Positions 1,849 through 29,545 of a stretch of DNA of 64,000 bases are shown here, one piece after another. The stretch comes from Pseudomonas sp. ATCC 13867. Lineage in GTDB: Bacteria; Pseudomonadota; Gammaproteobacteria; Pseudomonadales; Pseudomonadaceae. Numbering within the stretch: the first letter of the stretch is position 1; the number at the start of each line of letters is the position of its first letter. The notes under the pieces are model-generated. The model did no database searches, was not told where the DNA came from, and worked only from the letters and a program-made list of their open reading frames with translations. Location of the stretch: contig NC_020829.1 of assembly GCF_000349845.1 (NCBI RefSeq), positions 2,549,001 through 2,613,000 on the forward strand. The letters are read 5' to 3'. A program made the translations under genes and the position numbers.

Positions 1849-2330
1849 GTTCTTCTCCGTCTTGTTCTTGTTGAAGGCCGGAGTCCTTCCATACCGTTGC
1901 CGCACTCAGGCCCAGGGGCTGATGTCATCGTCATACGGATTGCGCGAAGCGTGAAAACAGGCGGCCCTGCCGTGGGGCAAGGTCACGAAAGAGGATAACC
2001 GGCATGACTCGGATATCCACTCATATGACCTGCAAACCCACGGCTGGCGCGGATGAGAGCGTTATTTCCGACGCACGGAGTCGGATAAGGCCGCTGCCAG
2101 GGGGCTTTCACGGCCTGCATTGCGGCGTTCGCGCCCGGGTCGTTCGACCATCGTCTAAAACTGTCCGGGATGTCTCAGGCTGATACAGCCGTCGCGAATT
2201 GCCACTGCGCCGTGCCCCTGTGCGTTGACCAATGGTTTGTTTCCCAAGGGTTTTTGCCGCTGGCACGGAATGTGAGAGGCAAGACTCCGTCCGCCTGTCG
2301 CCTCAGGCGCCGTCAAACAGGGAGGCTCGC
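1849..2330. promoter_or_regulatory. Divergent intergenic region with a palindrome
   Basis: This gap between the transporter and the amine dehydrogenase operon holds no convincing gene. The one clear element is an inverted repeat TCCGAC-N7-GTCGGA at 2067-2085, a possible regulator site. I could not place a confident promoter; a TGGCACG near 2264 lacks the matching -12 TTGC. Confidence 0.35.
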
Positions 2331-4514
2331 TTGAAGAGGATGTCGTCATGGATTGCAGGGCTGTGCGCCGCGCTGGCGACGTGCGCGCTGCTCTGGCTGC
2401 TGCCGCCGATCGGCAATGGCGTGCTCTGGGGGGGCGCCGCGCTGATCGCCCTGGGGGCGCTGCGTCCGCACCTGCGTCCGCCGACCTGGCCGGTGGCAAT
2501 GGGCGTGTTGTGCGGTGCCTGTCTGGCGGTGGCGCTGCACCTGCTGGCCGATCACTTCCAGCTGCGTTACGTCTGGCTGTACAGCAGCGCGGCGCTGCCG
2601 GCCTACCTGAAGTTCTCCAACCTCTGGGGCGGCGACGAAGGCACGGTACTGCTGCTGGCCACCTTCTGCATGGCCGCCGCCCTGAGCGGTCGCCAACTGG
2701 AGGGCTGGGCCGGGCGCGGGATGGCGCTGATCGCCGCCTGGTACACGGCCACCGCCGCCTGGCTCGGGCCGTTCAGTGCGACGCCGGCGGACTGGCTGGC
2801 GAGCCTGCCGAGCCAGGGCATGAATGCGCACCTGCAGACCTTCTGGATGTCCTTCCACGCGCCGCTGATTCTCGGTGCCTATGCCTGGGCCCTGGCGCCC
2901 GCCGGCGCCGCGCTTGGCGCGCTGGGGCAGGGCGACAGCGCCTACGCCTGGGTGATGCCGCGCTACAGCCGGCGTGCCTGGCTGGTGCTTACCGCCGGCA
3001 TCGGCGCGGGGATGGCCTGGGCGATGGAGGATTTCACCTTCGGCCAGCTCTGGCACTGGGACCCGGTACAAACCTCGGCCTTCGTCATCTGGGCGCTGCT
3101 CGGCGCGGTACTGCACGGCGCCCGCCGCTGGCGTACCAACGGCGCCAATCGCCGCCTGCTGCCGCTGCTCAGCCTGCTGGCGGCGGCGATGGCCTGCGTG
3201 GCGATGGCGGTGACCCGCAGCACGGTGCTGGCCAGCTCGCACCGCTACATTGGCACCACCTCCTGGCTCAGCCACCTGGTGCTGGCGCTGATCCTGCTGG
3301 TGCTGGCGGCGTTCTACCTGCTCGCCGGGCGTCGCGCCGAGGTTACGGCGGGGCGTCGGCGCGGGGCGTCGGACTGGACGCTGGACGTGGCCATCTACCT
3401 GTTCGCCGGCACCGGGCTGCTGGCCCTTGGCGCGCTGGTCCAGGCGCATCTCTACGAATGGCTGGGCCTGGAGCGGCCAAGCGAGCTGAAACCCTTCTTC
3501 GAGACCCTGACCGCCTGGGCCACCACGGCGGAGATGGACAGCCTGCGCCGCGCCTTCGACCAGTGGGACGTCGACGGCTACGGCCTGGCACTCTGGGTGG
3601 TGCCTTTGCTGGCGGTGCTCGGCCTGATCGGCGGCTACAGCTTCCTGCGCCGCTGCGGCCGGTCCCGCCTGGCGTTGCTGGCGACCCTGGCGATGGCCGC
3701 CGTGATGCTCTGGACCGGCTGGCGCGGTGGCTGGCTGAGCGGCGGCTACAACGGCGACGGGATGCTCTCGCAGAGCATCGTGCGGGTGCTGCCGTGGCTG
3801 GACGCGGCGCTGCTCGGTGGCGTCTTCCTGATGGGCTGCTGCCTGTTCTGGGGCGCGCTGAGCCTGTGGCGCAGCCGGCGCCTGGGCAACCTGCGCTACA
3901 GCGGCGGGCTGGCGCTGGTGCACGGTGGCGCGGTGATCGCGCTGGTGGGCGGACTGGCGGCCACGGCACTCAACAGCTACCAGCAGATCAGCATCCCGCC
4001 GGGCACCTCCTTCGAACAGTGGCACTCGGTAATCGGCGGTATGGAACTGCGCGTGCTGCCTGATTCCAGCCGCCCGGATTTCTCCGGCTACCACGCGGTG
4101 GCCAAGGTCGAACTGCGCGACGGCGAGCGGACGCTCGCCGGCCACGCGCTGTTCCAGGACAGCCGTGGCAATCCGCCGGCCTACCAAGGCCCGGTGCGCC
4201 AGCTCTGCGAGATTCTCGACTACCACTACGCGCGCTTCGCCTCGGACCGTGGCTACGTGCTGCATCCGTTCATCGTGCGCGGCTGGAGCGGCGACCTGCA
4301 GGTCTGGGTGCCGGCCTCGGCACGCCTGCTGAAACAGCCGGGGGACGAGATCGAAAGCGTGGTGGTGGTGCGCCGCTTCCCGTTCCTCTCGCTGGTCTGG
4401 GTCGGCCTCTTGACCATGCTGTTCGGCGCCTTGTTGCTGCCGGCGGGCGGTGTTTTGCGCCGGCGCGGCCATACTGCTTCGGACGGCGTCGCACAGGCCG
4501 TGTCTCAGAGTTAG
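2331..4514 (+). CDS. CcmF/CcsA-like cytochrome c assembly membrane protein
   Basis: Large polytopic membrane protein (about 727 residues) resembling CcmF, the heme-lyase component of cytochrome c maturation. It contains the motif GGDEGT near residue 100 and a WWD-like segment (LWHWDPVQTSAFVIW), with many hydrophobic helices, a periplasmic C-terminal domain and a last membrane helix, as in CcmF. A TTG at 2331 is favoured as start because GGGAGG sits 5 nt upstream; the ATG at 2340 is the alternative. It lies just ahead of the diheme subunit gene qhpA, so a role in attaching heme to QhpA, or a specialised chaperone role, is a reasonable inference. It is not part of a ccm operon here, so it is probably a paralogue of the housekeeping CcmF. 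Confidence 0.75.
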   Translation: MKRMSSWIAGLCAALATCALLWLLPPIGNGVLWGGAALIALGALRPHLRPPTWPVAMGVLCGACLAVALHLLADHFQLRYVWLYSSAALPAYLKFSNLWGGDEGTVLLLATFCMAAALSGRQLEGWAGRGMALIAAWYTATAAWLGPFSATPADWLASLPSQGMNAHLQTFWMSFHAPLILGAYAWALAPAGAALGALGQGDSAYAWVMPRYSRRAWLVLTAGIGAGMAWAMEDFTFGQLWHWDPVQTSAFVIWALLGAVLHGARRWRTNGANRRLLPLLSLLAAAMACVAMAVTRSTVLASSHRYIGTTSWLSHLVLALILLVLAAFYLLAGRRAEVTAGRRRGASDWTLDVAIYLFAGTGLLALGALVQAHLYEWLGLERPSELKPFFETLTAWATTAEMDSLRRAFDQWDVDGYGLALWVVPLLAVLGLIGGYSFLRRCGRSRLALLATLAMAAVMLWTGWRGGWLSGGYNGDGMLSQSIVRVLPWLDAALLGGVFLMGCCLFWGALSLWRSRRLGNLRYSGGLALVHGGAVIALVGGLAATALNSYQQISIPPGTSFEQWHSVIGGMELRVLPDSSRPDFSGYHAVAKVELRDGERTLAGHALFQDSRGNPPAYQGPVRQLCEILDYHYARFASDRGYVLHPFIVRGWSGDLQVWVPASARLLKQPGDEIESVVVVRRFPFLSLVWVGLLTMLFGALLLPAGGVLRRRGHTASDGVAQAVSQS

Positions 4515-4575
4515 ACAGCAATCGCGAAATTAGACGCATCGAACCTCGGCGTGACGGCCGAGAGCTCCGGGAAAA

Positions 4576-4600
4576 CCCGCCGCAAGCCTGGTGCGGCGGG
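4576..4600 (+). other. Strong intercistronic hairpin
   Basis: A perfect 9-bp stem (CCCGCCGCA/TGCGGCGGG) with a 7-nt loop lies between the CcmF-like gene and qhpA. No T-tract follows, so it is more likely an attenuator or mRNA-processing/stability hairpin than a strong terminator. About 115 nt separate it from the qhpA start. Confidence 0.45.
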
Positions 4601-4714
4601 CCCTGCAAAGGAGTGGCACACAAACTGCTAAATCGCTACCAAGCGTTCGACGCAATCGCGCTTAGCCCATCGGTGGGCAGGAATAACCAACAAGAATACC
4701 GAGGAGGCCTGACC

Positions 4715-6289
4715 TTGAAGATGACACGACTTCGGCACTGTCTGGGTGCCGGAACCCTGGCCGCTCTGGCCCTAGCGCTGCACCAGCCGGCCAACGCCGC
4801 CGATGGCCAGGCGATCATCAACGCCAAGTGCCAGGCGTGCCACACGCCCGAAGGCAACAATTCCCTGAGCCGCATCAGCCACCAGCGCAAGACCCCCGAG
4901 GGTTGGCTGATGAGCATTGCGCGCATGCAGGTGATGTACGGCCTGAAGATCACCGACGACGAACGCCGCTCGGTGGTCAAGTTCCTCGCCGACAAGCAGG
5001 GCCTGGCGCCCAGCGAAACCGAAGGCGTGCGCTACGCCCTCGAGCGCCGGCTGAACACCGTGGAGAAATTCGATACCAACTTCGAACAGATGTGCGCCCG
5101 CTGCCACTCGGGCGCGCGCATCGCCCTGCAGCGTCGCCCGGCGGCGGAGTGGGAGAAGCTGGTGAACTTCCACCTCGGCCGCTGGCCGTCGCTGGAATAC
5201 CAGGCGCTGTCCCGCGACCGCGACTGGTTCGACCTGGCGAAGAAAGAGATGGTCCCGGAGCTGGCCAAGCGTTACCCATTGGACAGCAAGGCCTGGAGCG
5301 ACTGGCAGAAGAGTCGTCCGCAGGCCGAGTCGCTGGCGGGCGAGTGGAGCTTCGCCGGGCACATGCCGGGCAAGGGCGACCTGGCCGGCACCATGAGCGT
5401 GGCCAAGAGCGGCGACGATGCGTTCAAGGTCCGCGTGAAGGGCCAATACGCCGATGGCGAGCCGTTCAGCGGCGAGGGCAGCGCGGTGCTGTACAACGGC
5501 TACGAGTGGCGCGGCAACGTCACCGTGGGCGACCTGAGCATGCGCCAGGTGTTCGCCGCCCTCGATGGCCAGATGCAGGGCCGCATGTTCGACAAGGCCC
5601 ACGATGAGCGCGGCCTGGACTTCGTTGCGGCGAAGGACGGCAGCAGCCACGTGCTGGGCGTGCAGCCGGCCTACATCAAGGCGGGTGTGGAGACCGAGGT
5701 CAGCGTGGTCGGCACCGGCCTGAAGGGCAAGCCATCGTTCGGCGCCGGCGTGGAGGTGGTGTCGGTGGTGTCCGAGACGCCCGAGCGCGTGACCGTCAAG
5801 GTCAAGGCCAGCGATGCGGCCGCCGCCGGCGAGCGCGACGTTACCGTGGGCACCGCCAAGGGCGGCAGCCTCGCGGTGTACAAGGACATTGCCGAAGTGA
5901 AGGTGGTGCCGGAGTTCTCCATCGCCCGCATCGGCGGCAATGGCGGCTCCACGCCCAAGGTCCAGGGCAGCTTCGATGCCGAGGCCTGGGGCAAGGGCGC
6001 CGATGGCAAGCCGTTCCGTATCGGCGTGTTCCCCGCGCAGTGGTCGGTGGAACCCTTCGACGACCGCGCCAAGGAAGACCAGGACGTGAAGTTCGCCGGA
6101 GAGATGGATGCTTCCACCGGTATCTTCACCCCGGGTGACGCCGGCCCCAACCCGGCCCGCAAGATGATGACCAACAACGCCGGCAACCTGAAGGTGATCG
6201 CCGCGGTGGACGACGCCGGCCAGTCGCACAAGGGCGAAGGGCACATGATCGTCACCGTGCAGCGTTGGAACAACCCGCCGATCCCGTAA
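4715..6289 (+). CDS. qhpA: Quinohemoprotein amine dehydrogenase, diheme alpha subunit
   Basis: Periplasmic 60-kDa subunit that takes electrons from the CTQ cofactor of the gamma subunit and passes them to soluble redox carriers during primary amine oxidation. A Sec signal peptide ends near ...QPANAA (about residue 29). Two c-type heme motifs are visible, CQACH at about residues 39-43 and CARCH at about 127-131, followed by beta-rich domains, in line with the family (about 490-residue mature chain). GAGGAGG at 4701-4707 is 7 nt from the TTG at 4715 and 13 nt from the ATG at 4721, so TTG is favoured; either gives the same mature protein. qhpD, qhpC and qhpB follow directly, which supports the call. 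Confidence 0.93.
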   Translation: MKMTRLRHCLGAGTLAALALALHQPANAADGQAIINAKCQACHTPEGNNSLSRISHQRKTPEGWLMSIARMQVMYGLKITDDERRSVVKFLADKQGLAPSETEGVRYALERRLNTVEKFDTNFEQMCARCHSGARIALQRRPAAEWEKLVNFHLGRWPSLEYQALSRDRDWFDLAKKEMVPELAKRYPLDSKAWSDWQKSRPQAESLAGEWSFAGHMPGKGDLAGTMSVAKSGDDAFKVRVKGQYADGEPFSGEGSAVLYNGYEWRGNVTVGDLSMRQVFAALDGQMQGRMFDKAHDERGLDFVAAKDGSSHVLGVQPAYIKAGVETEVSVVGTGLKGKPSFGAGVEVVSVVSETPERVTVKVKASDAAAAGERDVTVGTAKGGSLAVYKDIAEVKVVPEFSIARIGGNGGSTPKVQGSFDAEAWGKGADGKPFRIGVFPAQWSVEPFDDRAKEDQDVKFAGEMDASTGIFTPGDAGPNPARKMMTNNAGNLKVIAAVDDAGQSHKGEGHMIVTVQRWNNPPIP

Positions 6290-6320
6290 CCGTCGGGATC
6301 GGATGAACTGAATGCGTGAG

Positions 6321-6338
6321 GCCCACCTGCGGGTGGGC
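6321..6338 (+). other. Intercistronic hairpin between qhpA and qhpD
   Basis: A perfect 7-bp stem GCCCACC/GGTGGGC with a 4-nt loop sits in the 76-nt gap and has no T-tract. It could protect the upstream qhpA message or lower read-through to the maturation gene, giving more structural subunit than enzyme. This role is inferred. Confidence 0.4.
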
Positions 6339-6365
6339 ATAACAAGAAAGTTCCGGGAGGTCGCC

Positions 6366-7796
6366 ATGGGCGCCATCTTGAATCTGGTCGAACGCAACCT
6401 GCATGAAGTGCAGGTCGACGCCGACCGCCTGTTGTTCCACATCCCCAGCTCCTCGCTGTTCGCCAGCGACGAGCTGACCGGCGGGATCATCGACGCGCTG
6501 CGCGGGCAGGCCTGCTCGCCGGACGAACTGACCCAGCGCCTGGCCGGGCGCTTCGCCGCCGAGGAGATCGACGAGACCCTGCGCGAGCTGATCGCGCTGG
6601 AGCTGGTCAGCGACGGCTCGCCGCTGCCCCCTGAAATCGGCATCAAGAAAGTCGATCGCACCGCGCTCAATACCGTGGTGCTGAACGTCAATACCGGCTG
6701 CAACCTCAGCTGCACCTACTGCTACAAGGAAGACCTGGACAAGCCCTCCGCCGGTAAGAAGATGGGCGCGGAAACCGCCGAGGCCTCGGTGGAAATGCTG
6801 ATCCAGGAATCCCCCGACGAGCAGCGCTACACCGTGGTGTTCTTCGGCGGCGAACCGCTGTCCAACCGCCCGCTGATCGAGCACATGGTCGCGTACTGCG
6901 AGCGTCGTTTCGGCGAGCTGGGCAAGACCGTGGACTTCGTCATGACCACCAACGCCACGCTGCTCACCGAGGAAATCGTCGACTGGCTCAACGCCCATCG
7001 CTTCGGGCTGTCCATCAGCATCGACGGGCCGAAGACGGTGCACGACCGCAACCGCATCACCGTGGGCGGGCAGGGCACCTATGACGTGGTGCGGCGCAAG
7101 GCCGACATGCTGCTGTCGCGCTACACCGCGCGGCCGGTGGGCGCACGGGTGACCCTGACCACCGGCGTCACCGACGTCGAGACCATCTGGAATCACCTGT
7201 TCAACGAGATGGGCTTCGCCGAAGTCGGTTTCGCCCCGGTCACCTCGGGCGACATCAGCAGCTACAACCTCACCACCGATGAGCTCAAGGCTGTCTTCGC
7301 CGGCATGAAGACCCTCGGTCGCCGTTACCTAGCCGAGGCGCTGCAGGGGCGCAACATCGGCTTCTCCAACCTGCACCAGCTGATCACCGACATCCACGAA
7401 GGGCAGAAGAAGGCCCTGCCGTGCGGCGCCGGCCTGAAGATGCTGGCGGTGGACCACAAGGGCGAGCTGAACCTGTGCCACCGCTTCACCGGTTCTTCGC
7501 TGCCGACCTTCGGCAATGTGCATGAAGGGGTGAAGCAGGCCGAGCTGAACGAGTTCCTGTCGCAGCGCCTGGACCGCACCGACACCGGCTGCGCCAGCTG
7601 CCACATCCGCAACCTCTGCTCCGGCGGCTGCTACCACGAGAGCTACGCGCGCTACGGCGACCCGGCGCACCCCACCTACCACTACTGCGAACTGATGAGG
7701 GACTGGGTCGACTTCGGCATCGAGGTCTACAGCCGGATCATGGCTTCCAACCCCAGCTTCATCGACCGCCACATCACTCCGCGGAAGGCGCACTGA
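6366..7796 (+). CDS. qhpD: Radical SAM thioether synthase for QhpC maturation
   Basis: Cytoplasmic radical S-adenosylmethionine enzyme of about 476 residues. In the family it installs the three intrapeptidyl Cys-to-Asp/Glu sulfur-methylene thioether bonds in the gamma subunit. The SAM cluster motif CX3CX2C (CNLSCTYC) is at residues 112-119, and the C-terminal SPASM-type cysteines occur around [15 protein letters not shown] and the later CEL. The ~100-residue N-terminal region resembles the peptide-binding (RRE-like) domains of such enzymes. The start at 6366 has GGGAGG 5 nt upstream; upstream in-frame codons (from 6312) lack a good site. The next gene, its substrate qhpC, starts 1 nt after the stop. 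Confidence 0.93.
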
Positions 7797-7797
7797 C

Positions 7798-8121
7798 ATG
7801 AAACATCTGAAAGCGATCAACACCAAAGCACAGAAGCTCGAACAGGCCGCCGCCGAGGATCGCATCGAGGACGTGGTGGCGATGAACTCCGTGGCCGGCT
7901 GCGCGGCGACCACCGACCCGGGCTGGGAAGTCGACGTGTTCGGCGGCGTGTCCTCGCTCTGCCAGCCGATGGAAGCGGACCTCTACGGCTGCTCCGACCC
8001 TTGCTGGTGGCCGGCCCAGGTGCCGGACATGATGAGCACCTACCCCGACTGGAACAAGGATGCGCAGGCCTCGGCCGAGAACTGGCGCAACCTCGGCACC
8101 GTCTTCCCGGACGACAAATGA
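7798..8121 (+). CDS. qhpC: Quinohemoprotein amine dehydrogenase, CTQ gamma subunit precursor
   Basis: 107-residue precursor of the catalytic subunit bearing cysteine tryptophylquinone. Against the remembered P. putida mature numbering with an offset of 28, every crosslink residue is present: C35-E44, C55-D61 and C69-D77 for the three thioethers, and C65-W71 for the quinone. The first 28 residues (ending ...RIEDVVA) form a leader, not a Sec signal; in the known systems the leader is removed by the subtilisin-like QhpE and the peptide is exported by the ABC protein QhpF. It is tightly coupled to qhpD upstream (1-nt gap) and to qhpB downstream. The identity is very secure despite the small size. 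Confidence 0.95.
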
Positions 8122-8165
8122 TCGCCCTGAAACATATGGGACAGAAGAACAAGAGGAAAACCTGC

Positions 8166-9287
8166 ATGTCCAGAAAAGCATTCGCCGCCGCGCTCGGTGG
8201 CCTCTCGCTGGCCTGCGCGCTGCAAGCCGTCGCCGCAGACGAGAGCAAGGCGCTGGAAAGTGGCCACGAGTACCTGATCAGCACCAACTACCCGAACAAC
8301 CTGCACGTCATCGACATGCAGACCGACAAGCTGTTCAAGACCTGCACCATCCCCGGCGCGTACGGCCCGGGCATGACCCAGCTGTCGCCGGACCGCAAGG
8401 TCGCCTACATCCTCAGCAACCACTACGCGGACATCTACGGCATCCAGCTCGATGACTGCAAACCGGTGTTCCACGCCACCATCGCGCAGAAGCCGGGCGA
8501 GAACGCGCGCTCGATGTTCTCCATGACCGTCAGCCATGACGGCAAGGAGATCTACGCCGTCGCCAACCCGACGCTGATCCTCGCCGAGCACTACGAGGTG
8601 CAGCAGCCGCGCCTGCAGGTCTACTCGGTGGCCGACGGCATGAATGCCAAGCCGGTGCGCACCTTCCCGGCGCCGCGCCAGCTGACCATCATGCAGAGCG
8701 GCGACGACGGCACCCTCTACGTGGCTGGCCCGGACATCTACAAGGTGGACGTGAAGACCGGCAAGTTCGACGTGGTGATCCCCAGCCGTCACTGGCAGCG
8801 CCCCAACTACGCGCCGCCGGACGTGCTCTACGTGTGGAACCAGCAGACCTACCCGCGCGACTTCTCGCTGCTCTACACCACGGCGAAGTTCAAGGATGCC
8901 AAGCAGGACCCGGCCACCGCCGACTACCTGTATGGTTTCTTCAACATCGACCTGGCCACCGGCAAGACCGAGACCGTCGACTTCGGCCCGGTCACCGAGG
9001 TGTACTTCAGCGGCATCCGCTCGGCCAAGGACCGCAACATCGTCTACGGCGTGCTGAACCGCCTGGCCAAGTACGACATCAAGGAGCAGAAGCTGGTCAA
9101 GGCGGCGAACCTGGACCACTCCTACTACTGCCTGTCGACCAACAAGGCCGGCAACAAGCTGTACCTGACCGGCACCCTGAACGACGTGGCGATCTTCGAC
9201 GCCGACAGCCTCGAGCGCATCGGCGATCTGAAGCTGCCCGGCGGCGACATGGCGATCACCACCAGCCAGGCGTTCGTGGCCAACTGA
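8166..9287 (+). CDS. qhpB: Quinohemoprotein amine dehydrogenase, beta-propeller subunit
   Basis: Periplasmic 373-residue subunit that folds as a seven-bladed beta-propeller and closes the active site over the gamma subunit. The signal peptide is MSRKAFAAALGGLSLACALQ, cleaved after ...AVAA. Repeating propeller-like strands are visible (LHVIDMQTDKLFKTC, VYSVADGMNAKP, IYKVDVKTGKFDV, IFDADSLERIGDLKL). AGAGGA 8 nt upstream sets the start; the earlier in-frame ATGs overlapping the qhpC stop have no ribosome binding site. It is the last gene of the operon: a strong terminator follows 20 nt after the stop, so qhpE/F/G are not co-transcribed here. Confidence 0.92.
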   Translation: MSRKAFAAALGGLSLACALQAVAADESKALESGHEYLISTNYPNNLHVIDMQTDKLFKTCTIPGAYGPGMTQLSPDRKVAYILSNHYADIYGIQLDDCKPVFHATIAQKPGENARSMFSMTVSHDGKEIYAVANPTLILAEHYEVQQPRLQVYSVADGMNAKPVRTFPAPRQLTIMQSGDDGTLYVAGPDIYKVDVKTGKFDVVIPSRHWQRPNYAPPDVLYVWNQQTYPRDFSLLYTTAKFKDAKQDPATADYLYGFFNIDLATGKTETVDFGPVTEVYFSGIRSAKDRNIVYGVLNRLAKYDIKEQKLVKAANLDHSYYCLSTNKAGNKLYLTGTLNDVAIFDADSLERIGDLKLPGGDMAITTSQAFVAN

Positions 9288-9347: not shown

Positions 9348-9872
9348 CCGCCTCAGATTTCCGGCTCTGGACTCTCGTTCTTGATTGCCAGGTACCGCTG
9401 TGCTCCGCAGCGCGCACAGCGCTGGCAGAGCATCGGCACGCGGCCGACTTCGGTCAGAATCCCTTCATCCCAAACACATCCCAGGAAAAAGCAGCGCAAT
9501 CGCATGTGTCCTCCTCCGGATCGCTCCAGGCAGACAGAAAGTGCAGGTGACGCTCCTGGCTTGTTCTTGTGCGGAGACAGGTAGCAGCCTCGCGCCGGTC
9601 GTCTAGAATGGACAATCTAAAGTGCTGGATGGCTCCTGTCCGCCACCGTTTGCGGCACATCGCCGGTGCCGGACAGCGCCAGCGTGATGCCTCGAAAGGC
9701 CTGCCGTATTGGTCGGCAGCGTGCAGGGAGCGCTGGGTGTAACCGACCAATGGAAGTCAATAAAATGACATAGGTCATCGAAATACAATTGAGGTGACAA
9801 ATTAACGACGGGTTTCTGATGCGCTGTTGCTATGATTGACTCTCAGGTTAAGGGCCACTCGCAGAGATCTTT
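9348..9872. other. Intergenic region, no gene recognised
   Basis: About 525 nt ahead of the polysaccharide cluster. Short open frames exist on both strands but none has convincing codon use or a ribosome binding site. The last 150 nt are relatively AT-rich and probably hold the promoter of the cluster; a TATGAT box near 9829 is the only -10-like element I can point to. Confidence 0.4.
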
Positions 9873-11267
9873 ATGAATACCGCGTCACCCCTGGCCGCCG
9901 TTGTCGGCACCGCTTCCTCCCGCTACCGCAGCACTGAACTGGAGCATTTCGCTGATCTGGCCGGTCTGCAGTCGGCAGCGACCTACGATGTGCTGCTCCT
10001 CGATCTACCCGGCATCCAGGCCGGGCAGATGCTCCGTCACCTGCGCCAGGACCCGCGCTATCGTTTCTCCCTGATCTATTGCTGTCAGGATCTTGACTCC
10101 TGGTGCGTGGCATTGGGCGATGGTCCACCGCCGGCCGATCTGGGCATCATCACGCCGCTCTGGCGCCTGTGGCGTGAACGCTTCAGCCTGTTCAACCAGG
10201 GGCAGGCGCCGGCACGCTTCGAAGAGCGCGTGCTGGCCTGGCTCTGGCTGCGCTCGCGCGGCGACGTGCATGCCGTGCGCGATACCGCCGTGCCCCAGCA
10301 TTACCGCTACCCGATTCTCGAGGCCCTGAGCGACAGCGAGGAGATCAATCCGTTTTCCTGGCTGCAACTGATGGGGCAGCACGGCTGGCTGGAGGAGGGC
10401 GAGCTGCTGGATCGTCTGCGCCTGTGTACCGGCTGCGGCTCGGGGCGCCTGAACTACGTGGATGTCTGCCCGGAATGCCAGGCCCTGGACATCGGCCGCC
10501 AGCCGTCGTTGCACTGCTTCACCTGCGGCCACGTCGGGCCCCAGGAGCACTTCCTCAAGGACGGCTTGCTGATGTGCCCGAACTGCCTGACCCGACTGCG
10601 CCACATCGGCAGCGACTACGACCGTCCGCTGGAGAACTACCGCTGCCGCAGTTGCCAGGCATTCTTCGTCGACGCCGCCGTGCAGGCGCGTTGCCTGGAC
10701 TGCGGGCAGAACCATGAGCCCGACAAGTTGCGGGTGCGCGAGGTACGCCACTTCCGCATTGCCGAGGCCGGGCGCCTGCGCTGCCGCGAGGGCTTCGCCG
10801 CCACCTCGGCGAACATGGAACGCTTCGGCAGCCTCAGCCTGTTGCCGCGCCAGGCCTTCCTCGACCTGCTCACCTGGCAGTTGCAACTGACCACGCGCCA
10901 CCGCAATCCGCCGTTCTCCCTGCTCGGGCTGCGCTTCGTCAACCTGCTGGAAACCCTCGCCGAGCTGGGCGAGATGCGTGGCCATGCCCTGGTGGACGGC
11001 CTGGTGGAGCGCCTGCAGGAAGCCGTGCGCGAGACGGACCGCTGCTCGCGCATGAGCGAGGAAGTGCTCTGGGTGCTCATGCCTCACACCGATGCCGCCG
11101 GCCTGGAAGTGGTGCGCCAGCGCCTGGCCACGGGCGCCGAGCACCTGACCCTGGAGAAGGCGACGCGCATCGAGATCCGCCTGGCGGGCTTCACCGCGCC
11201 GGACGACCAGCTGGAGCAGGAAGATGCCGCCTTGCTGCTGGCCCGGCTGGGCGGACAACTTGGGTGA
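9873..11267 (+). CDS. TackOD1-like zinc-ribbon protein with degenerate GGDEF domain
   Basis: 464 residues in three parts. Residues 1-110 look like a weak receiver-like domain (YDVLLLDLPGI). Residues 185-277 hold six CxxC pairs (C185/188, 199/202, 215/218, 235/238, 258/261, 274/277), enough for three zinc ribbons, as described for the TackOD1 output domain. Residues 315-464 resemble a diguanylate cyclase domain (DRCSRMSEEVLWVLMPHTD), but the GGDEF signature is replaced by SEEVL, so c-di-GMP synthesis is not expected. It probably acts as a cytoplasmic sensor or scaffold for the glycosyltransferase encoded 3 nt downstream. There is no signal peptide. Family name by memory, function inferred. Confidence 0.7.
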   Translation: MNTASPLAAVVGTASSRYRSTELEHFADLAGLQSAATYDVLLLDLPGIQAGQMLRHLRQDPRYRFSLIYCCQDLDSWCVALGDGPPPADLGIITPLWRLWRERFSLFNQGQAPARFEERVLAWLWLRSRGDVHAVRDTAVPQHYRYPILEALSDSEEINPFSWLQLMGQHGWLEEGELLDRLRLCTGCGSGRLNYVDVCPECQALDIGRQPSLHCFTCGHVGPQEHFLKDGLLMCPNCLTRLRHIGSDYDRPLENYRCRSCQAFFVDAAVQARCLDCGQNHEPDKLRVREVRHFRIAEAGRLRCREGFAATSANMERFGSLSLLPRQAFLDLLTWQLQLTTRHRNPPFSLLGLRFVNLLETLAELGEMRGHALVDGLVERLQEAVRETDRCSRMSEEVLWVLMPHTDAAGLEVVRQRLATGAEHLTLEKATRIEIRLAGFTAPDDQLEQEDAALLLARLGGQLG

Positions 11268-11270
11268 AGC

Positions 11271-12599
11271 ATGGAAGGATTCGTCGAACAATGGCTGCTG
11301 CTGATCGGAGAGTTTGCCCGGACTGACGGGTTCTTCCGTGCCGTCTTCATGCTGCTGCCGGCCTTCCTGCTGCTGGAAGTGCCGCTCAACCTGATGGTGC
11401 TGGTCGGCGTGTTGCGCTGGTTCATGCGCAAGCCGTTCGAGCTGCCCAGGGACAACGGCTACCGCCCGCGGGTGTCGTGCATCATCACCTGCTACAGCGA
11501 AGGCCTGGATGTGCAGAAGACCCTGCTGAGCCTGTGCGAGCAGACCTATCCGGGCTACATCGAGATGATCCCGGTGGTCGATGGCGCGGCGGTCAACCAG
11601 CCCACCATGCAGGCGGTGCGGGACTTCCGCGTCGATCCGGTGCTGCACCCCCGTCGTCTGCTGCGGCCCATCGCCAAATGGCAGCGCGGCGGCCGGGTGT
11701 CGTCGCTCAACGCCGGTCTCGCGCATTGCACCGGCGAGGTGATCATGGCGCTGGACGGCGACACCTCCTTCGACAACGACATGGTCAGCCGCATGGTTCG
11801 TCATTTCGCCGACCCGGACGTGCCGGCGGTGGCGGGCAGCCTGCGCGTGCGCAATGCCTGGGCTTCGCTGACCACGGCGATGCAGGCGCTGGAGTACCAG
11901 CTGTCGATCCACATGGCCAAGATCGGCCTCAGCGAATGGAACCTGGTGAACAACGTGTCCGGGGCCTTCGGCGCGTTCCGCCGCAGCTTCCTCGACAAGA
12001 TCGGCGGCTGGGACACCCATACGGCCGAAGACCTGGACATCACCCTGCGGATCAAGAACTACTTCGGCCGCCAGCCCCTGCGCATCCCTTTCGAGCCCGG
12101 CGCCATCGGCCACACCGATGCACCGGTGAAGTTCCTGCAGTTCCTCCAGCAGCGGCTGCGCTGGGATGGCGACTTGTACTTCCTGTACATCCGCAAGCAT
12201 CGCCACAGCTTCAACCCGCGCCTGCTGGGCTGGCCCAATTTCCTGATGACGCTGGTCACCGGCTTCTTCTTCCAACTGGTGCTGCCGTTCATCATCTTCG
12301 GCTACTGCGTGATCGGCCCACTGATCGTGCCGCTGCCGCGCGTCCTCGCCCTGGCGCTGCTCATCTACCTGGTCTACCTGGGCATGACCCTGCTCTTGTA
12401 CCTGACCATGCTGGTGCTGGTTTCCGAACGTCCACGCCAGGACCTGAAGCTGTTCCCGGTGGTCTTCGTCTTCCCCCTGTTCATGCTGGTCATGCGCCTG
12501 TGGAGCGCGGTGGCCATGCTCAACGAGGCCCTGCGCCGCGGCCATGAAGAAACCAGCATGGCGCCCTGGTGGGTGCTGCGTAAGGCAAAGAGGTTCTGA
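11271..12599 (+). CDS. Family 2 membrane glycosyltransferase (processive polysaccharide synthase type)
   Basis: 442-residue inner-membrane enzyme. One or two N-terminal helices (MLLPAFLLLEVPLNLMVLVG) precede a cytoplasmic GT-A domain with the hallmarks of cellulose/alginate/hyaluronan-type synthases: DGD (sugar nucleotide), TAED (catalytic base) and QQRLRW (QxxRW). Four or so C-terminal helices follow, which in this fold build the export pore. No PilZ domain is seen. Start at ATG 11271, 3 nt after the previous stop, implying translational coupling. The genes for a TolC-like channel and an HlyD-like adaptor follow, so it is best read as the synthase of a secreted polysaccharide. The sugar is unknown. 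Confidence 0.88.
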   Translation: MEGFVEQWLLLIGEFARTDGFFRAVFMLLPAFLLLEVPLNLMVLVGVLRWFMRKPFELPRDNGYRPRVSCIITCYSEGLDVQKTLLSLCEQTYPGYIEMIPVVDGAAVNQPTMQAVRDFRVDPVLHPRRLLRPIAKWQRGGRVSSLNAGLAHCTGEVIMALDGDTSFDNDMVSRMVRHFADPDVPAVAGSLRVRNAWASLTTAMQALEYQLSIHMAKIGLSEWNLVNNVSGAFGAFRRSFLDKIGGWDTHTAEDLDITLRIKNYFGRQPLRIPFEPGAIGHTDAPVKFLQFLQQRLRWDGDLYFLYIRKHRHSFNPRLLGWPNFLMTLVTGFFFQLVLPFIIFGYCVIGPLIVPLPRVLALALLIYLVYLGMTLLLYLTMLVLVSERPRQDLKLFPVVFVFPLFMLVMRLWSAVAMLNEALRRGHEETSMAPWWVLRKAKRF

Positions 12600-12603
12600 T
12601 TCG

Positions 12604-14697
12604 ATGATGCGTTCCCTGCTTCTGGGCTCCCTGCTGCTGGCTGCCGGCCTGTCCCAGGCCGATGTGCTGCCGTTGTCGCGGGTGCTCGACAGCGCCGACG
12701 ACAGCGCCGTGCTGCAAGCCAATGCCGCCGACCTGCGGGCCCTGGACGCGCTCAAGGAGCAGCGCGAGGCCGAGGCGGGCTGGCAGTGGTTCGGCTCGGG
12801 CAGTGCCGGGCACTACCGCGAGCTGGTGACCGAAGACCTGATCGATACCTACTACGGGCGCAGCCTCGCACTGGGCTTGCGCCACCCCTTGCTGGGCAGC
12901 CTGCGGCGCCAGGTGCAGGCGGTTTCCGCCGTCGAACTGGAGCAGCAGAGGCAGCAGTCCCGCCGCCTGCTGCAGAAGGCCGAGCAGCGACTGGCGCTGC
13001 GCAGCGCCTACGCCGACTGGTGGCGTGCGGAAGAGGAAAATCGCTGGTGCCGGACACTGTTGCCCGATGCGGCCAGCGCCCGCGAGCGCCTGGCCCTGCG
13101 CGAGCGCCAGGGTTGGCTGCTGCCGTCCCAGGCGCGCCTGCTGGACGGCCGCTGGCAGACCTTGCAGCGGCGTTGTGAGTCGAGTGCGCGGTTGATGGAC
13201 GACACCCGTGAAAGCCTGGCGTCACTCTCCGGCCTGGAAATCACCCCCGCTCAGGAGGCTCGGGCGGAAGCGCTGGCGGCGCAGGTGCAGCCCCTGGCCC
13301 GCTGGCGCCAGGCGCTGGAAGGCCATCCGCGCCTGCAGGAGCGCCGGGATGAACTGCGCCAGGCCGAGCAGAACCGCAAGTCGCCCTGGTACGACAGCAT
13401 CGATTCCAGCTTCAGCGTTGGACAAAGTTTCGAGGATCGCAGCGGAGCGACCAGTACCGGCAATGGCCTGGTTGCCAGCCTCAACTTCTCCACGCCGTTC
13501 GATCTGATGTCCTACGGCCAGGCCCGCGGGCGGGAAGGGGAGGCGCGCCACGAGGCGGCCCTGGCCAGGCTGAATGCCGAGCGCCAGCAGTTGCTGCAGG
13601 ACCTGGGCAAGACCCTGCAGGGCCAGCGGCAGGCCGTGGAGGACCTGGAGCGCGAGCGCGAGCAACTCGCCGTGTCGTCGGTGGCCCAGCGCGAGCAGCG
13701 CCTGCGCTCTGCGCGTTCGGTCGAGGGTTCGCTGGGCGAGGAGCAGGCGGTGGAGCTGGAGCGCTACGACAACGGTATGCGCCTGATCGCCGCGTGGCAT
13801 GCCGCCTGGTTGCGCGAAGCGTCCTTGCGCATGTTCGTCGACGATGACCAGGCGCTGAGCCCGTTGCTCGGCGTACAGAACCTGAGCTGGCAGTCGCCGG
13901 CAGGCGCCCAGGGCAACGCCCCGGCCAAGGCCGGCCCGGCCCGCGAGTCGGCGTGGAACCAGGGCGTCTACCTGTGGAAGAGCCGGGCCCTGCTGCAGCC
14001 CGGGACCCGCCGCGCCGAACTGAAGGCCCTGCGTAGCGCCGGCATGCAGCGCCTGTATGTGGGGCTCGATACCAACCAGGTGGCGGACATGCCGACCCTG
14101 CGCAAGCAGCTCCAGGGCACCCTGGCCGATGCCCGCGCCCAGGGCATGCAGGTCGTGCTGCTGCTGGGCGACCCGGCGTGGCTGTCGGCCGATGGGCGCA
14201 AGGGCCTGCTGGCGCTGCTCGGTCAGCTTCGCGAGGTGCGCTTCGACGCCGTGCACCTGGACCTCGAGGTCGAGCAGCTCGGCTGGCCGGTGCCCGACAG
14301 CCGCCTGCGGGACTGGCTGGATACCCTCGGCGCGGTCGCCCGGCTCGATTACTGGCCGCTGGAGCTGTCCAGCCATCCGCGCTGGTTCGCCGAGCCCGCC
14401 AGTGGCACCTGCGTGCCCTGCGCCTTGCCGCAGCGCGGCGTGCGGCAGGTCAGCCTGATGATCTACACCCGCAACCCCGAACGCAGCGCGGAACTTGCGC
14501 AATCCATTGCCCGTCGTTGGCCGGCGCTGCGTTTCCGACTGGCGCAGAGCGTCGAGCCGCAATTGCCGGCCGAGGAATCCTGGGCCGGAGCGTCGAGCAC
14601 CCAGCTGCAGCAGCAGGCCGAGCGCTGGCGTAAGCCTCTGCAGTCGGCCGGCGTGTCCGGCATCGACTGGCAGGACTGGTCCCATTACCCGCATTGA
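12604..14697 (+). CDS. TolC-like outer-membrane channel fused to a TIM-barrel hydrolase-like domain
   Basis: 697 residues. The signal peptide is MMRSLLLGSLLLAAGLSQA. Residues about 20-440 are helical and Gln/Arg/Glu-rich with the two-fold pattern of TolC-type outer-membrane factors (long coiled coils around RQVQAVSAVELEQQRQQSRR and near QDLGKTLQGQRQAVEDLERE, with beta segments such as FSVGQSFEDRSGATSTGNG). After a flexible Pro/Ala linker, residues about 455-697 look like a TIM barrel (VYLWKSRALL, YVGLDTNQ, VVLLLGDPAW, AVHLDLEVEQLGW, VSLMIYT, GIDWQDW), as in glycoside hydrolase-like domains; the D-x-E in HLDLEVE could be catalytic. I know of no named family with this arrangement. Start ATG 12604, 4 nt after the synthase stop. 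Confidence 0.7.
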   Translation: MMRSLLLGSLLLAAGLSQADVLPLSRVLDSADDSAVLQANAADLRALDALKEQREAEAGWQWFGSGSAGHYRELVTEDLIDTYYGRSLALGLRHPLLGSLRRQVQAVSAVELEQQRQQSRRLLQKAEQRLALRSAYADWWRAEEENRWCRTLLPDAASARERLALRERQGWLLPSQARLLDGRWQTLQRRCESSARLMDDTRESLASLSGLEITPAQEARAEALAAQVQPLARWRQALEGHPRLQERRDELRQAEQNRKSPWYDSIDSSFSVGQSFEDRSGATSTGNGLVASLNFSTPFDLMSYGQARGREGEARHEAALARLNAERQQLLQDLGKTLQGQRQAVEDLEREREQLAVSSVAQREQRLRSARSVEGSLGEEQAVELERYDNGMRLIAAWHAAWLREASLRMFVDDDQALSPLLGVQNLSWQSPAGAQGNAPAKAGPARESAWNQGVYLWKSRALLQPGTRRAELKALRSAGMQRLYVGLDTNQVADMPTLRKQLQGTLADARAQGMQVVLLLGDPAWLSADGRKGLLALLGQLREVRFDAVHLDLEVEQLGWPVPDSRLRDWLDTLGAVARLDYWPLELSSHPRWFAEPASGTCVPCALPQRGVRQVSLMIYTRNPERSAELAQSIARRWPALRFRLAQSVEPQLPAEESWAGASSTQLQQQAERWRKPLQSAGVSGIDWQDWSHYPH

Positions 14698-14704
14698 GCA
14701 TCCC

Positions 14705-15748
14705 ATGAAGATTCGATTCTCCAGCCCCAAGGAACAACAGCCCACCCAGGACCAGGGCCTCAAGGTGCTTTACGCGCCGGGCAAGCGCATGGCGTTCAAG
14801 CTGCGCTGGTATCTGATCCTTTTCGTGGTGACCAGCCCGCTGCTGTTCCTGGTGGGGCGCGAAATGCTCGGCCTCTGGCTGATCGAAGCCCCCGCGCAGC
14901 TGCATCTGCCGTCCAGCGAGCTGCGCGCACGGGAGGCCGGGCAGGTGGCGAAGATACTGGTTCGACCCGGCGACAAGGTTTCGGCCGGCCAGTTGCTGAT
15001 GCAGATGGATAACCCCGAATGGCGTGCCCGCCTGGCCCTGCTGGCCGATCCCTCGAAGGCAACGCCCGCGGCGCAGGGTCGGCGGACCCTCAGCGAACGT
15101 GAGCGCGAGCCGCTGGTGCGCCTGCTCAACAGTGCGGACAGCCGCCTGCAGCAACTGCGCGGCTTGCTCGCCGCCGGCGCGGCGACCCGTGGCGAAGTGC
15201 AACAGGCCCAGGACGAGCGTGACCGTCGCCAGCGCGACCTGGTGGAGTTCGACCGGCGCGAGTCGCAGCCGGGGGACGACACCCTGGACCGCCAGCGCCG
15301 GCTGGAAAGCGACTGGCTGCAGTCGCGCCTGCAAGGGCTGGAGCTCAAGGCCAGCGACTCCGGGGTCATCAGCGAAGTGATGGTGGGCGAGGGCGAGAAC
15401 GTCGGTCCCGGCACCCTGCTGATGCGCCTGCAGCGCCTGGGCGATGCCGAAATCTGGATTTACCTCGATCCGCGCTTTGCCGAATACGCATCGCCCGGCC
15501 AGCCATTCCGCGTGCGCCTGCCGGACGGCAAATGGTTGCAGGCGGAGGTGGTGCGCATGGTGGAGGACGCGGCCCCGGTGCCGGTGGAACTGCGCGAGGC
15601 CTTCAGCGCGCCGAATCGCAACCTGCGCCTGCTGGCACGGGTCAAGGGCGAGGAGTGGCCGGCGTTCTGGCGCGTCGACCGCCTGGGCCTGAAGGCGCGC
15701 TTCCCGCATCGCTGGAGCTGGCTCGACCGCTGGGCCGTTCAGGAGTAA
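14705..15748 (+). CDS. HlyD/Alg44-like periplasmic adaptor
   Basis: 347 residues: a short basic cytoplasmic N-terminus, one membrane helix (WYLILFVVTSPLLFLVG), then a periplasmic membrane-fusion fold with two lipoyl-like halves (AREAGQVAKILVRPGDKVSAG and ASDSGVISEVMVGEGENVGPG) around a coiled-coil hairpin (residues about 125-205), and a beta-barrel C-terminus. It lacks the PilZ domain of Alg44. It starts 7 nt after the channel/hydrolase gene and closes the operon. It most likely links the inner-membrane synthase to the TolC-like channel, giving a tripartite export path for the polymer. Confidence 0.85.
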   Translation: MKIRFSSPKEQQPTQDQGLKVLYAPGKRMAFKLRWYLILFVVTSPLLFLVGREMLGLWLIEAPAQLHLPSSELRAREAGQVAKILVRPGDKVSAGQLLMQMDNPEWRARLALLADPSKATPAAQGRRTLSEREREPLVRLLNSADSRLQQLRGLLAAGAATRGEVQQAQDERDRRQRDLVEFDRRESQPGDDTLDRQRRLESDWLQSRLQGLELKASDSGVISEVMVGEGENVGPGTLLMRLQRLGDAEIWIYLDPRFAEYASPGQPFRVRLPDGKWLQAEVVRMVEDAAPVPVELREAFSAPNRNLRLLARVKGEEWPAFWRVDRLGLKARFPHRWSWLDRWAVQE

Positions 15749-15811: not shown

Positions 15812-15837
15812 GCCCTGGCCTTGCGCCGGGGCTTTTT
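15812..15837 (+). terminator. Rho-independent terminator of the polysaccharide cluster
   Basis: Stem GCCCTGGC / GCCGGGGC (one T-G wobble) with a 5-nt loop followed by TTTTT, 63 nt after the last gene. Confidence 0.85.
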
Positions 15838-29258: not shown

Positions 29259-29325
29259 GGCCCCTCCCTTAGTGTCGTTGTCGAAAGTGACTCCGACATG
29301 GCGGTTGGCAACCGTCAGAGGGGCC
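29259..29325 (-). promoter_or_regulatory. Structured leader of terC that can hide the ribosome binding site
   Basis: On the minus strand GGCCCCTC (29325-29318) is an exact complement of GAGGGGCC (29266-29259), which contains the Shine-Dalgarno of terC. A second hairpin, CTCTGAC...GTCGGAG (29320-29291) with an inner GGTTGCCAACC, uses the same CTC bases, so the two folds exclude each other. This is riboswitch-like. I cannot confirm a match to the yybP-ykoY family. Confidence 0.5.
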
Positions 29326-29545
29326 CGGCGTCACAGGCGGGAACATAGCAGAGCAGGCCATCCAGGCAAACGGGGTAACGTAACAAGTTCCTACATTCAT
29401 GGCGAAAGGTGCATGTCTGTCCAGCAGAAGTTTAGTTGATGACCATTCAGACATTGCTCGCTGGACGAAGGTGTGTTGCGAGTTTTCCTGCGCCTCTCTC
29501 AGGGGGCGACAAGCGTGCGGCCAAGCCACCGCCGCGCTGCTGGGC

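Follow-up and report, generated by a model that had tools for sequence, protein, structure and literature searches.

A 64,000-nucleotide (nt) stretch of Pseudomonas sp. ATCC 13867 DNA (contig NC_020829.1, hereafter the window) carries four adjacent genes at positions 9873-15748. Judged from sequence, they probably form a self-contained, horizontally mobile, cyclic di-GMP (c-di-GMP)-controlled, synthase-dependent exopolysaccharide machine that exports its product through HlyD-TolC. The cassette encodes a soluble regulator combining a zinc ribbon with a degenerate GGDEF domain, a glycosyltransferase family 2 (GT2) synthase with intact motifs, a TolC protomer with a tethered TIM barrel, and an HlyD adaptor with a single transmembrane (TM) segment. 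Synthase-dependent polymers of Gram-negative bacteria mostly exit via single-chain beta-barrel porins. The features of the locus were:

9873..11267, + strand: gene 1, regulator (Reg), 464 amino acids (aa); open reading frame (ORF) and Pfam
11271..12599, + strand: gene 2, GT2 processive-type polysaccharide synthase, 442 aa; ORF and Pfam/NCBIfam
12604..14697, + strand: gene 3, TolC-type outer-membrane channel protomer with C-terminal glycosidase-type TIM barrel, 697 aa; AlphaFold2 and fold searches
12661..13863, + strand: TolC-like part of gene 3, residues ~20-420; four beta strands and two long helical hairpins
13945..14694, + strand: predicted TIM barrel of gene 3, residues 448-697, GH18/PgaB-like; AlphaFold2 and fold searches
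14705..15748, + strand: gene 4, HlyD-type periplasmic adaptor, 347 aa; Pfam and hydrophobicity
9756..9769, + strand: match to the FleQ consensus, putative c-di-GMP/FleQ control site; motif match
15812..15833, + strand: intrinsic-terminator-like stem and T run, 64 nt past the last stop codon

The genes lie on a single strand with gaps of 3, 4 and 7 nt, and the ORF coordinates thereby bear out the close packing described in the original prediction, a reading of the window from its letters. The adaptor was taken to be 347 aa because of the ATG at 14705. All parts of the cassette were found to be under purifying selection, with 30 ratios of nonsynonymous to synonymous substitution (dN/dS; five parts in six pairs) between 0.08 and 0.49. 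Since the gene order is also kept in independent lineages, the cassette does not represent a chance arrangement.

In gene 2, GT2 families scored up to 66.9 bits against a cut-off of 27 (Pfam), and GT2-type families were the only glycosyltransferase matches in the cassette. The motifs D104, D162-G-D164, T-A-E253-D254 and Q294-R-L-R-W298 were all present, and D104, D162, D164, E253, D254, Q294, R297 and W298 were invariant in 25 of 25 GT2 sequences, as is characteristic of processive synthases. The catalytic motifs listed in the original prediction are therefore intact, although the one written as TED reads TAED. Hydrophobic segments were found at residues 19-52, 323-386 and 390-418. The top NCBIfam model was PgaC_IcaA (TIGR03937, 122.2 bits against a cut-off of 422.3), followed by an XrtG-associated family (73.6 bits) and NodC (TIGR04242, 70.1 bits), while the cellulose synthase model TIGR03030 (CelA) reached 27 bits against a cut-off of 699.1. 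PilZ gave no match to any of the four proteins, synthase and adaptor included, at E 0.1 (Pfam).

The gene 4 product belongs to the HlyD family (HlyD_3, 48.1 bits against 22.2; HlyD_D23, 38.3 against 30; Pfam). It consists of a short conserved cytosolic tail, one TM segment and barrel-sandwich/HlyD domains. Within the tail, K3, F6, P14, G19, Y24, K28 and R29 were invariant in 25 of 25 sequences (numbering of the query, one above the true protein). An adaptor resembling both HlyD and Alg44 had been proposed; the HlyD type stands, but the likeness to Alg44 lacks a PilZ match.

The AlphaFold2 model of gene 3 had a mean predicted local distance difference test (pLDDT) score of 89.8 and placed the TolC part first (about residues 21-419) and a glycosidase-type barrel after it (450-697). 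The OEP domain was matched with 37.7 bits (cut-off 22, Pfam), and by the model and fold searches with Foldseek and VIA-align the TolC part makes up about the first two-thirds of the product. Each modelled protomer has the four beta strands and long helical hairpins of a TolC-type outer membrane factor. Model and fold searches agree on a TolC-like channel fused to a hydrolase-like TIM barrel, as had been supposed. The channel had been sought in the second half of the 12604-14697 product; a TolC part is present, but it lies in the first two-thirds with the TIM barrel second.

The non-TolC Foldseek rows were headed by GH18 chitinases, and the structure-alignment rows for the barrel (VIA-align) mixed GH18, Cwp19, GH164, GH5 and PgaB; families unlisted in these searches were not counted as absent. 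GH18 enzymes carry DxxDxDxE on strand 4, MxY on strand 6 and a Trp after strand 8. The barrel has FDAVHLDLE, with the second D changed to H, followed by LMIY and W692, a partial likeness that goes with mixed structural rows and no sequence family match. Residues D553, E555, H591, R593, M619, Y621, Q648, E651, Q690 and W692 were invariant. On the structural model the barrel appears glycosidase-like (GH18, PgaB). The C-terminus of TolC is periplasmic, and the barrel should therefore hang beside the duct in the periplasm. Of the proposed scheme of synthesis, export and trimming, the compact GT2/HlyD/TolC apparatus is retained, but trimming at the channel exit is unlikely.

In the regulator, TackOD1 (PF18551) was matched at residues 113-296 with 218.9 bits against a cut-off of 32 (Pfam), in agreement with its designation as TackOD1-like. 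Six CxxC pairs (12 Cys) were invariant in 24 of 24 regulator sequences, as expected of the TackOD1 zinc ribbon. A GGDEF domain followed at 324-431 (29.3 bits, cut-off 23.8, Pfam). The c-di-GMP I-site RxxD was present in all 23 regulators with a readable region, whereas none of the 23 had the GG[D/E]EF signature, which is SEEVL in the window protein and other residues elsewhere. The PelD_GGDEF model scored 15.2 bits, under its cut-off of 27, and no GAF match was found (Pfam). The protein was without a hydrophobic segment in a sequence scan and is predicted to be cytosolic; its N-terminal region looks receiver-like by eye. Because RxxD is kept, the GGDEF signature is lost and a hydrophobic segment is lacking, the regulator points to a soluble PelD-like c-di-GMP receptor with a degenerate GGDEF domain and not to an enzyme. 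An active diguanylate cyclase was rejected on the loss of the signature in 23 of 23 sequences; the Aeromonas plasmid record NZ_AP024139 labels the regulator 'diguanylate cyclase'. PelD is listed as a receptor with GAF and GGDEF domains in the available text of PMC10519070. The function of TackOD1 was termed obscure in the accessible part of a 2018 paper (PMC5847659), and the cassette would, if read correctly, supply a role for a bacterial TackOD1 protein. The regulator was found split over two frames at two loci (L113, 10727-12104; L074, 1704-3049), where decay or sequencing error is possible.

The fusion was scanned for in one genome per species, giving 16 named loci from Pseudomonas, Stutzerimonas and one Comamonadaceae metagenome-assembled genome. 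The four genes had an identical order in 15 of these; at the remaining locus (L030) the contig ends inside or just before GT2 and the regulator is missing. With the Aeromonas caviae plasmid described below, this confirms that the order is conserved. The unit is present in the species record of Pseudomonas oleovorans (L023). The neighbours of the cassette vary. Amine-dehydrogenase genes adjoin it in the window, L018 and L034; coaD, aldehyde dehydrogenase, rsmD and ftsEX-like genes (by eye) lie near most of L020-L036; and other, differing genes are found in L019, L030, L037-L039 and L072-L074.

Among 72,556 plasmid records, two contained the fusion, both of them mobilizable 29-kb plasmids of Aeromonas caviae. 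NZ_AP024139.1 (L042) holds a complete cassette at 2305-8127 with the four genes adjacent. A recombinase gene and toxin-antitoxin genes lie near this cassette. The stretch in NZ_AP024951 contains the end of GT2, the fusion and the adaptor, the remainder falling beyond the start of the record.

Distant cassettes in L038, L039, L072 and L074 (the last with the split regulator) had an unchanged order. Genes for SPOR-domain proteins of about 140-150 aa lie after that of the adaptor in L038 (8072-8521) and L039 (12311-12733), two genomes of one genus and the two loci covered by the scan of genes 3' of the adaptor. In the still more distant L161 the order is permuted to fusion, adaptor, regulator, GT2. 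Its adaptor scored 34.8 bits for HlyD_3 and its regulator 207.2 bits for TackOD1 with RESD kept. The TolC part of its fusion had no Pfam OEP match, and the match of its barrel to the profile (E 5.4e-14) was confined to positions 1-133; the fusion was therefore assigned by size, place and barrel. A class-wide search with the fusion profile matched 31 of 369 genomes, 5 covering the barrel and 26 the generic efflux part only. At the order level 11 of 390 genomes matched, 8 covering the barrel well, 2 the efflux part only and one (G095) with a weak barrel match (query 431-558, E 8.4e-5). The phylum search matched 8 of 398 genomes, 3 of them weakly (loci read by hand), and in the G714 region (L075) the four cassette proteins were unmatched at E 1e-3. 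By its gene order and distribution, the four-gene cassette is a real, horizontally mobile unit.

Within the Pseudomonadaceae the barrel was found in 49 of 298 genomes. GT2 was found at E 1e-100 in 39 of 298, counted in a second draw with identical handles where listed, and all 39 were among the 49 barrel genomes. Reading of the 49 barrel loci gave 34 complete cassettes, one complete with a split regulator, and one cut by a contig end with its GT2 on another contig. At three loci a TolC part was missing at E 1e-4, while the regulator, GT2, barrel and adaptor were present; G972 had no TolC match at its locus. At nine loci the barrel lies beside a polysaccharide deacetylase with no whole GT2, adaptor or regulator in the stretch read; six of these retain an in-frame leftover GT2 tail before the barrel and two have a TolC part. 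The last locus has the barrel in a 534-aa frame with no other cassette match. Since all 39 GT2 genomes keep the barrel and three of them are without a TolC part, GT2 is constantly accompanied by the barrel but not by the channel. Fluorescent pseudomonads commonly had the barrel as a protein of its own, about 276 aa long and with a start resembling a signal peptide (e.g. P0268; best 120 of 203). P0313 retains a TolC N-terminal stump, by eye; this stump and the fused distant cassettes make it likelier that the TolC part was lost than that it was gained.

A two-gene unit of barrel and a membrane-anchored-looking, NodB-type deacetylase was seen in L109, L110, L111, L112, L120, L121, L123, L149 and L037. 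The deacetylase is a 661-aa open frame in L037 and of about 620 aa in L109 and L112. It was scored as PF01522 in L037, L109 and L123 and identified in the others by similarity (at least 81% identity), and had no PDB relative at E 0.01. The pairing recalls PgaB and PelA, each of which couples a deacetylase with a second domain according to the available text of PMC4432689. In another class, L162 (6632-13643) encodes a relative of the deacetylase (41% identity) together with a GT2 and with HEAT-repeat and TPR proteins; a barrel gene on the opposite strand lies tail to tail with it. L163 (689-7975) has, all on one strand, genes for a HEAT protein, a GT2, a TPR-YaiO barrel protein (90.6 bits), a sulfatase-domain protein and a TIM-like protein. 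Similarity to the barrel is weak in both (profile E 5.7e-6 and 2.6e-5); the loci are possibly two further exopolysaccharide builds. The two natural variants, without the TolC part or with the barrel beside a deacetylase, make the barrel the enzyme of interest.

Upstream of the cassette, GTCAATAAAATGAC at 9756-9769 departs from the P. aeruginosa FleQ consensus GTCaNTAAAtTGAC in a single letter, the lower-case t, and ends 104 nt before the first ATG. The pattern GTCANTAAANTGAC had a single exact match in the whole 5.70-Mb genome and in the window; the reversed control had no match in the genome, and 100 shuffles of the window gave no match either. The FleQ consensus is published, and the available text of PMC6120874 reports the motif hundreds of times in F113 and judges it unreliable there. 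FleQ may add c-di-GMP control of transcription in this genome, which we regard as a lead.

Read from the protein families, the machine would work as follows. GT2 would polymerise a nucleotide sugar, and the chain would pass the inner membrane by way of the synthase's own membrane segments. On binding c-di-GMP the regulator would activate the synthase, in the manner of PelD in the Pel system. Synthase and TolC trimer would be bridged by the HlyD adaptor, letting the polymer cross the envelope in one step. Three tethered barrels in the periplasm beside the duct could cut chains that miss the channel, or set their length. Periplasmic clearing has been reported for AlgL (PMC8829089, excerpt), and a barrel outside the duct fits such clearing better than trimming at the exit. 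Our guess is that the polymer contains N-acetylhexosamine (HexNAc), given the PgaC and NodC models, first and third in rank for GT2, the likeness of the barrel to GH18 and PgaB, and the NodB-type deacetylase that accompanies the barrel in sister genomes.

Several results weigh against this reading. The AlphaFold2 model of the regulator (15 rows) had a mean pLDDT of 38.8 and no usable fold. The barrel matched no Pfam or NCBIfam family above cut-off (one chance NCBIfam match, 11.8 bits against 235), and a TIM profile found no credible relative among PDB sequences (two chance matches, E 0.28 and 1.5). In L161-L163 the similarity to the barrel found by tblastn was weak (E 3.7e-4 to 0.01). Three of the 39 GT2 genomes have no TolC part at the locus, which means that some genomes with the system do without the fused channel. 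With two mismatches allowed the FleQ pattern did no better than chance: the window has 2 matches (both strands of one site) where 1.04 are expected, and 2 were also reached in 28 of 100 shuffles. Nor is the site conserved, as at most one mismatch was found in 5 of 57 upstream stretches, some of which come from the same genome (e.g. L027 and L126) and which leave out L036, and in 3 of the 7 genomes of this genus that have the system.

The best surviving alternative, possible but doubtful, is a divergent poly-N-acetylglucosamine (PNAG)-type system, in which a PgaC-related GT2 with a PgaB-like stand-alone hydrolase domain would send the polymer through TolC instead of PgaA. The PgaC model leads the synthase matches, but its score is far below the equivalog cut-off, and the cassette is without a PgaA-type porin, PgaD or deacetylase. 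No domains of the PgaA TPR porin, the PgaB deacetylase or PgaD were found in the four genes (Pfam), and the neighbours vary by lineage. PNAG identity was rejected on the TIGR03937 score and these missing Pga domains. The barrel-linked deacetylase of the sister genomes was also unmatched in this genome, which is weak as a negative.

A glucan, cellulose-like or mixed-linkage as in XcsA or BgsBA (see below), with the barrel as a glucanase in the role of XcsC, seems unlikely. The cellulose synthase model scores under both PgaC and NodC, and GH18 chitinases head the non-TolC fold rows. Identity with the cellulose Bcs system was rejected on TIGR03030 and the lack of a PilZ match.

It is less probable still that GT2 makes an oligosaccharide or glycosylates a lipid which HlyD-TolC then secretes or displays. 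NodC-type GT2s yield short oligomers, in line with the TIGR04242 match, and the barrel could fix chain length. The QxxRW motif and synthase-like hydrophobic segments argue for a polymer instead, and there is no lipid-carrier gene among the four. Regulation of the c-di-GMP type is moreover typical of extracellular polymers.

An ordinary efflux or type I secretion pump beside a glycosyltransferase, to which HlyD and TolC parts alone would belong, was rejected as highly improbable, for no pump gene stays with the unit across neighbourhoods (flanks not searched for pump domains) and, of inner-membrane engines, GT2 alone is conserved alongside the adaptor; ftsE/ftsX-like genes, an ATP-binding cassette pair, lie 4-7 kb from the cassette in many loci.

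If the exopolysaccharide machine is as described, no TolC-type exporter of a polysaccharide before it would have had its whole set of parts encoded in a single operon, and the barrel attached to the duct would be an enzyme that clears polymer from the periplasm or sets chain length. Culturable pseudomonads have the synthase, adaptor, channel, hydrolase and regulator side by side, which opens the question of the TolC route to single gene deletions. The cassette would also add a plasmid-borne surface trait.

Immediately 5' of the cassette (4613-9287) lies a quinohemoprotein amine dehydrogenase-like operon, assigned by eye, with genes for a dihaem subunit, a radical SAM protein, a small subunit and a beta-propeller subunit. 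The cassette as part of this operon was rejected, the neighbour being common only to the window, L018 and L034 when 23 loci and the window were clustered. The terminator-like site at 15812-15833 is a weak call, as the region holds 5 such sites against 3.5 expected from shuffles. No tRNA was found in the 64-kb window. The only Rfam match at gathering threshold was a terC RNA element (RF03067, 52 bits, 29284-29336, - strand), far from the cassette.

Compared with known systems, the cassette was found to miss curated cut-offs or lack required components or domains of PNAG, cellulose, alginate and Pel, which upholds the original prediction on these four. Alginate is made by Alg8-Alg44-AlgE, where a GT2 likewise has a membrane-fusion-like partner; the cassette differs in having no PilZ in the adaptor and a TolC-type channel in place of AlgE, and alginate identity was rejected since the adaptor has no Alg44-type PilZ. 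PNAG (PgaABCD) shares PgaC as the nearest curated GT2 family and the PgaB barrel as a structural match. In PgaB a deacetylase shares a single chain with a C-terminal carbohydrate-binding domain; in the sister genomes the barrel has a deacetylase gene as its partner.

The cassette resembles Pel in that its putative c-di-GMP receptor is of the PelD type, with a GGDEF domain that is degenerate but keeps RxxD, and PelA also joins hydrolase and deacetylase domains. However, the cassette regulator has TackOD1 and neither a GAF match nor a membrane segment, the synthase is a GT2 instead of PelF, and PelB, PelC, PelE and PelG are missing from the cassette. The BgsBA pair of rhizobia, a GT2 synthase with an HlyD-like protein that makes mixed-linkage glucan, is also activated by c-di-GMP, but according to the available text of PMC9495663 it is a bicistronic operon without a TolC gene or hydrolase in which c-di-GMP binds the synthase itself.

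The closest parallel is the cyanobacterial Xcs system (XcsA-XcsB-TolC), which has a GT2 synthase, an HlyD-like adaptor, a TolC-type channel and a polysaccharide hydrolase. It has been proposed for cellulose, with experimental validation lacking and genes outside a single operon, in the available text of PMC12430437, which places PilZ on the synthase, gives the endoglucanase as a separate protein and has TolC encoded elsewhere. The cassette shares HlyD and TolC with it and differs by a short PilZ-less synthase, the TackOD1-degenerate GGDEF regulator, and barrel and channel as one protein, all in one operon.

A survey of synthase-dependent polymers covers cellulose, acetylated cellulose, PNAG, alginate and Pel and, in its available text, does not include a build like that of the cassette; TolC and HlyD are absent from the part of its main text available (PMC7112194). 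They are also absent from the main text of a fluorescens matrix survey (PMC7716237), and occur in other contexts in the available text of PMC8929069 and PMC5069766. Among the open-access matches listed, with subscription literature mostly outside the search scope, no account of such a four-gene operon was found. The claim of an undescribed system holds to that extent, but tripartite export of a polysaccharide by a TolC-type route has already been proposed in print (PMC12430437, in the text available). We give about even chances to a further class of synthase-dependent machine, composed of GT2, a TackOD1-degenerate GGDEF receptor, HlyD and a TolC trimer with three tethered glycosidases, its four genes moving together. 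Beyond the TolC-type route proposed in cyanobacteria, the present comparison adds the probable PelD-like nature of the regulator, the glycosidase-like barrel that stays with GT2 where the TolC part is missing, and the occurrence on plasmids.

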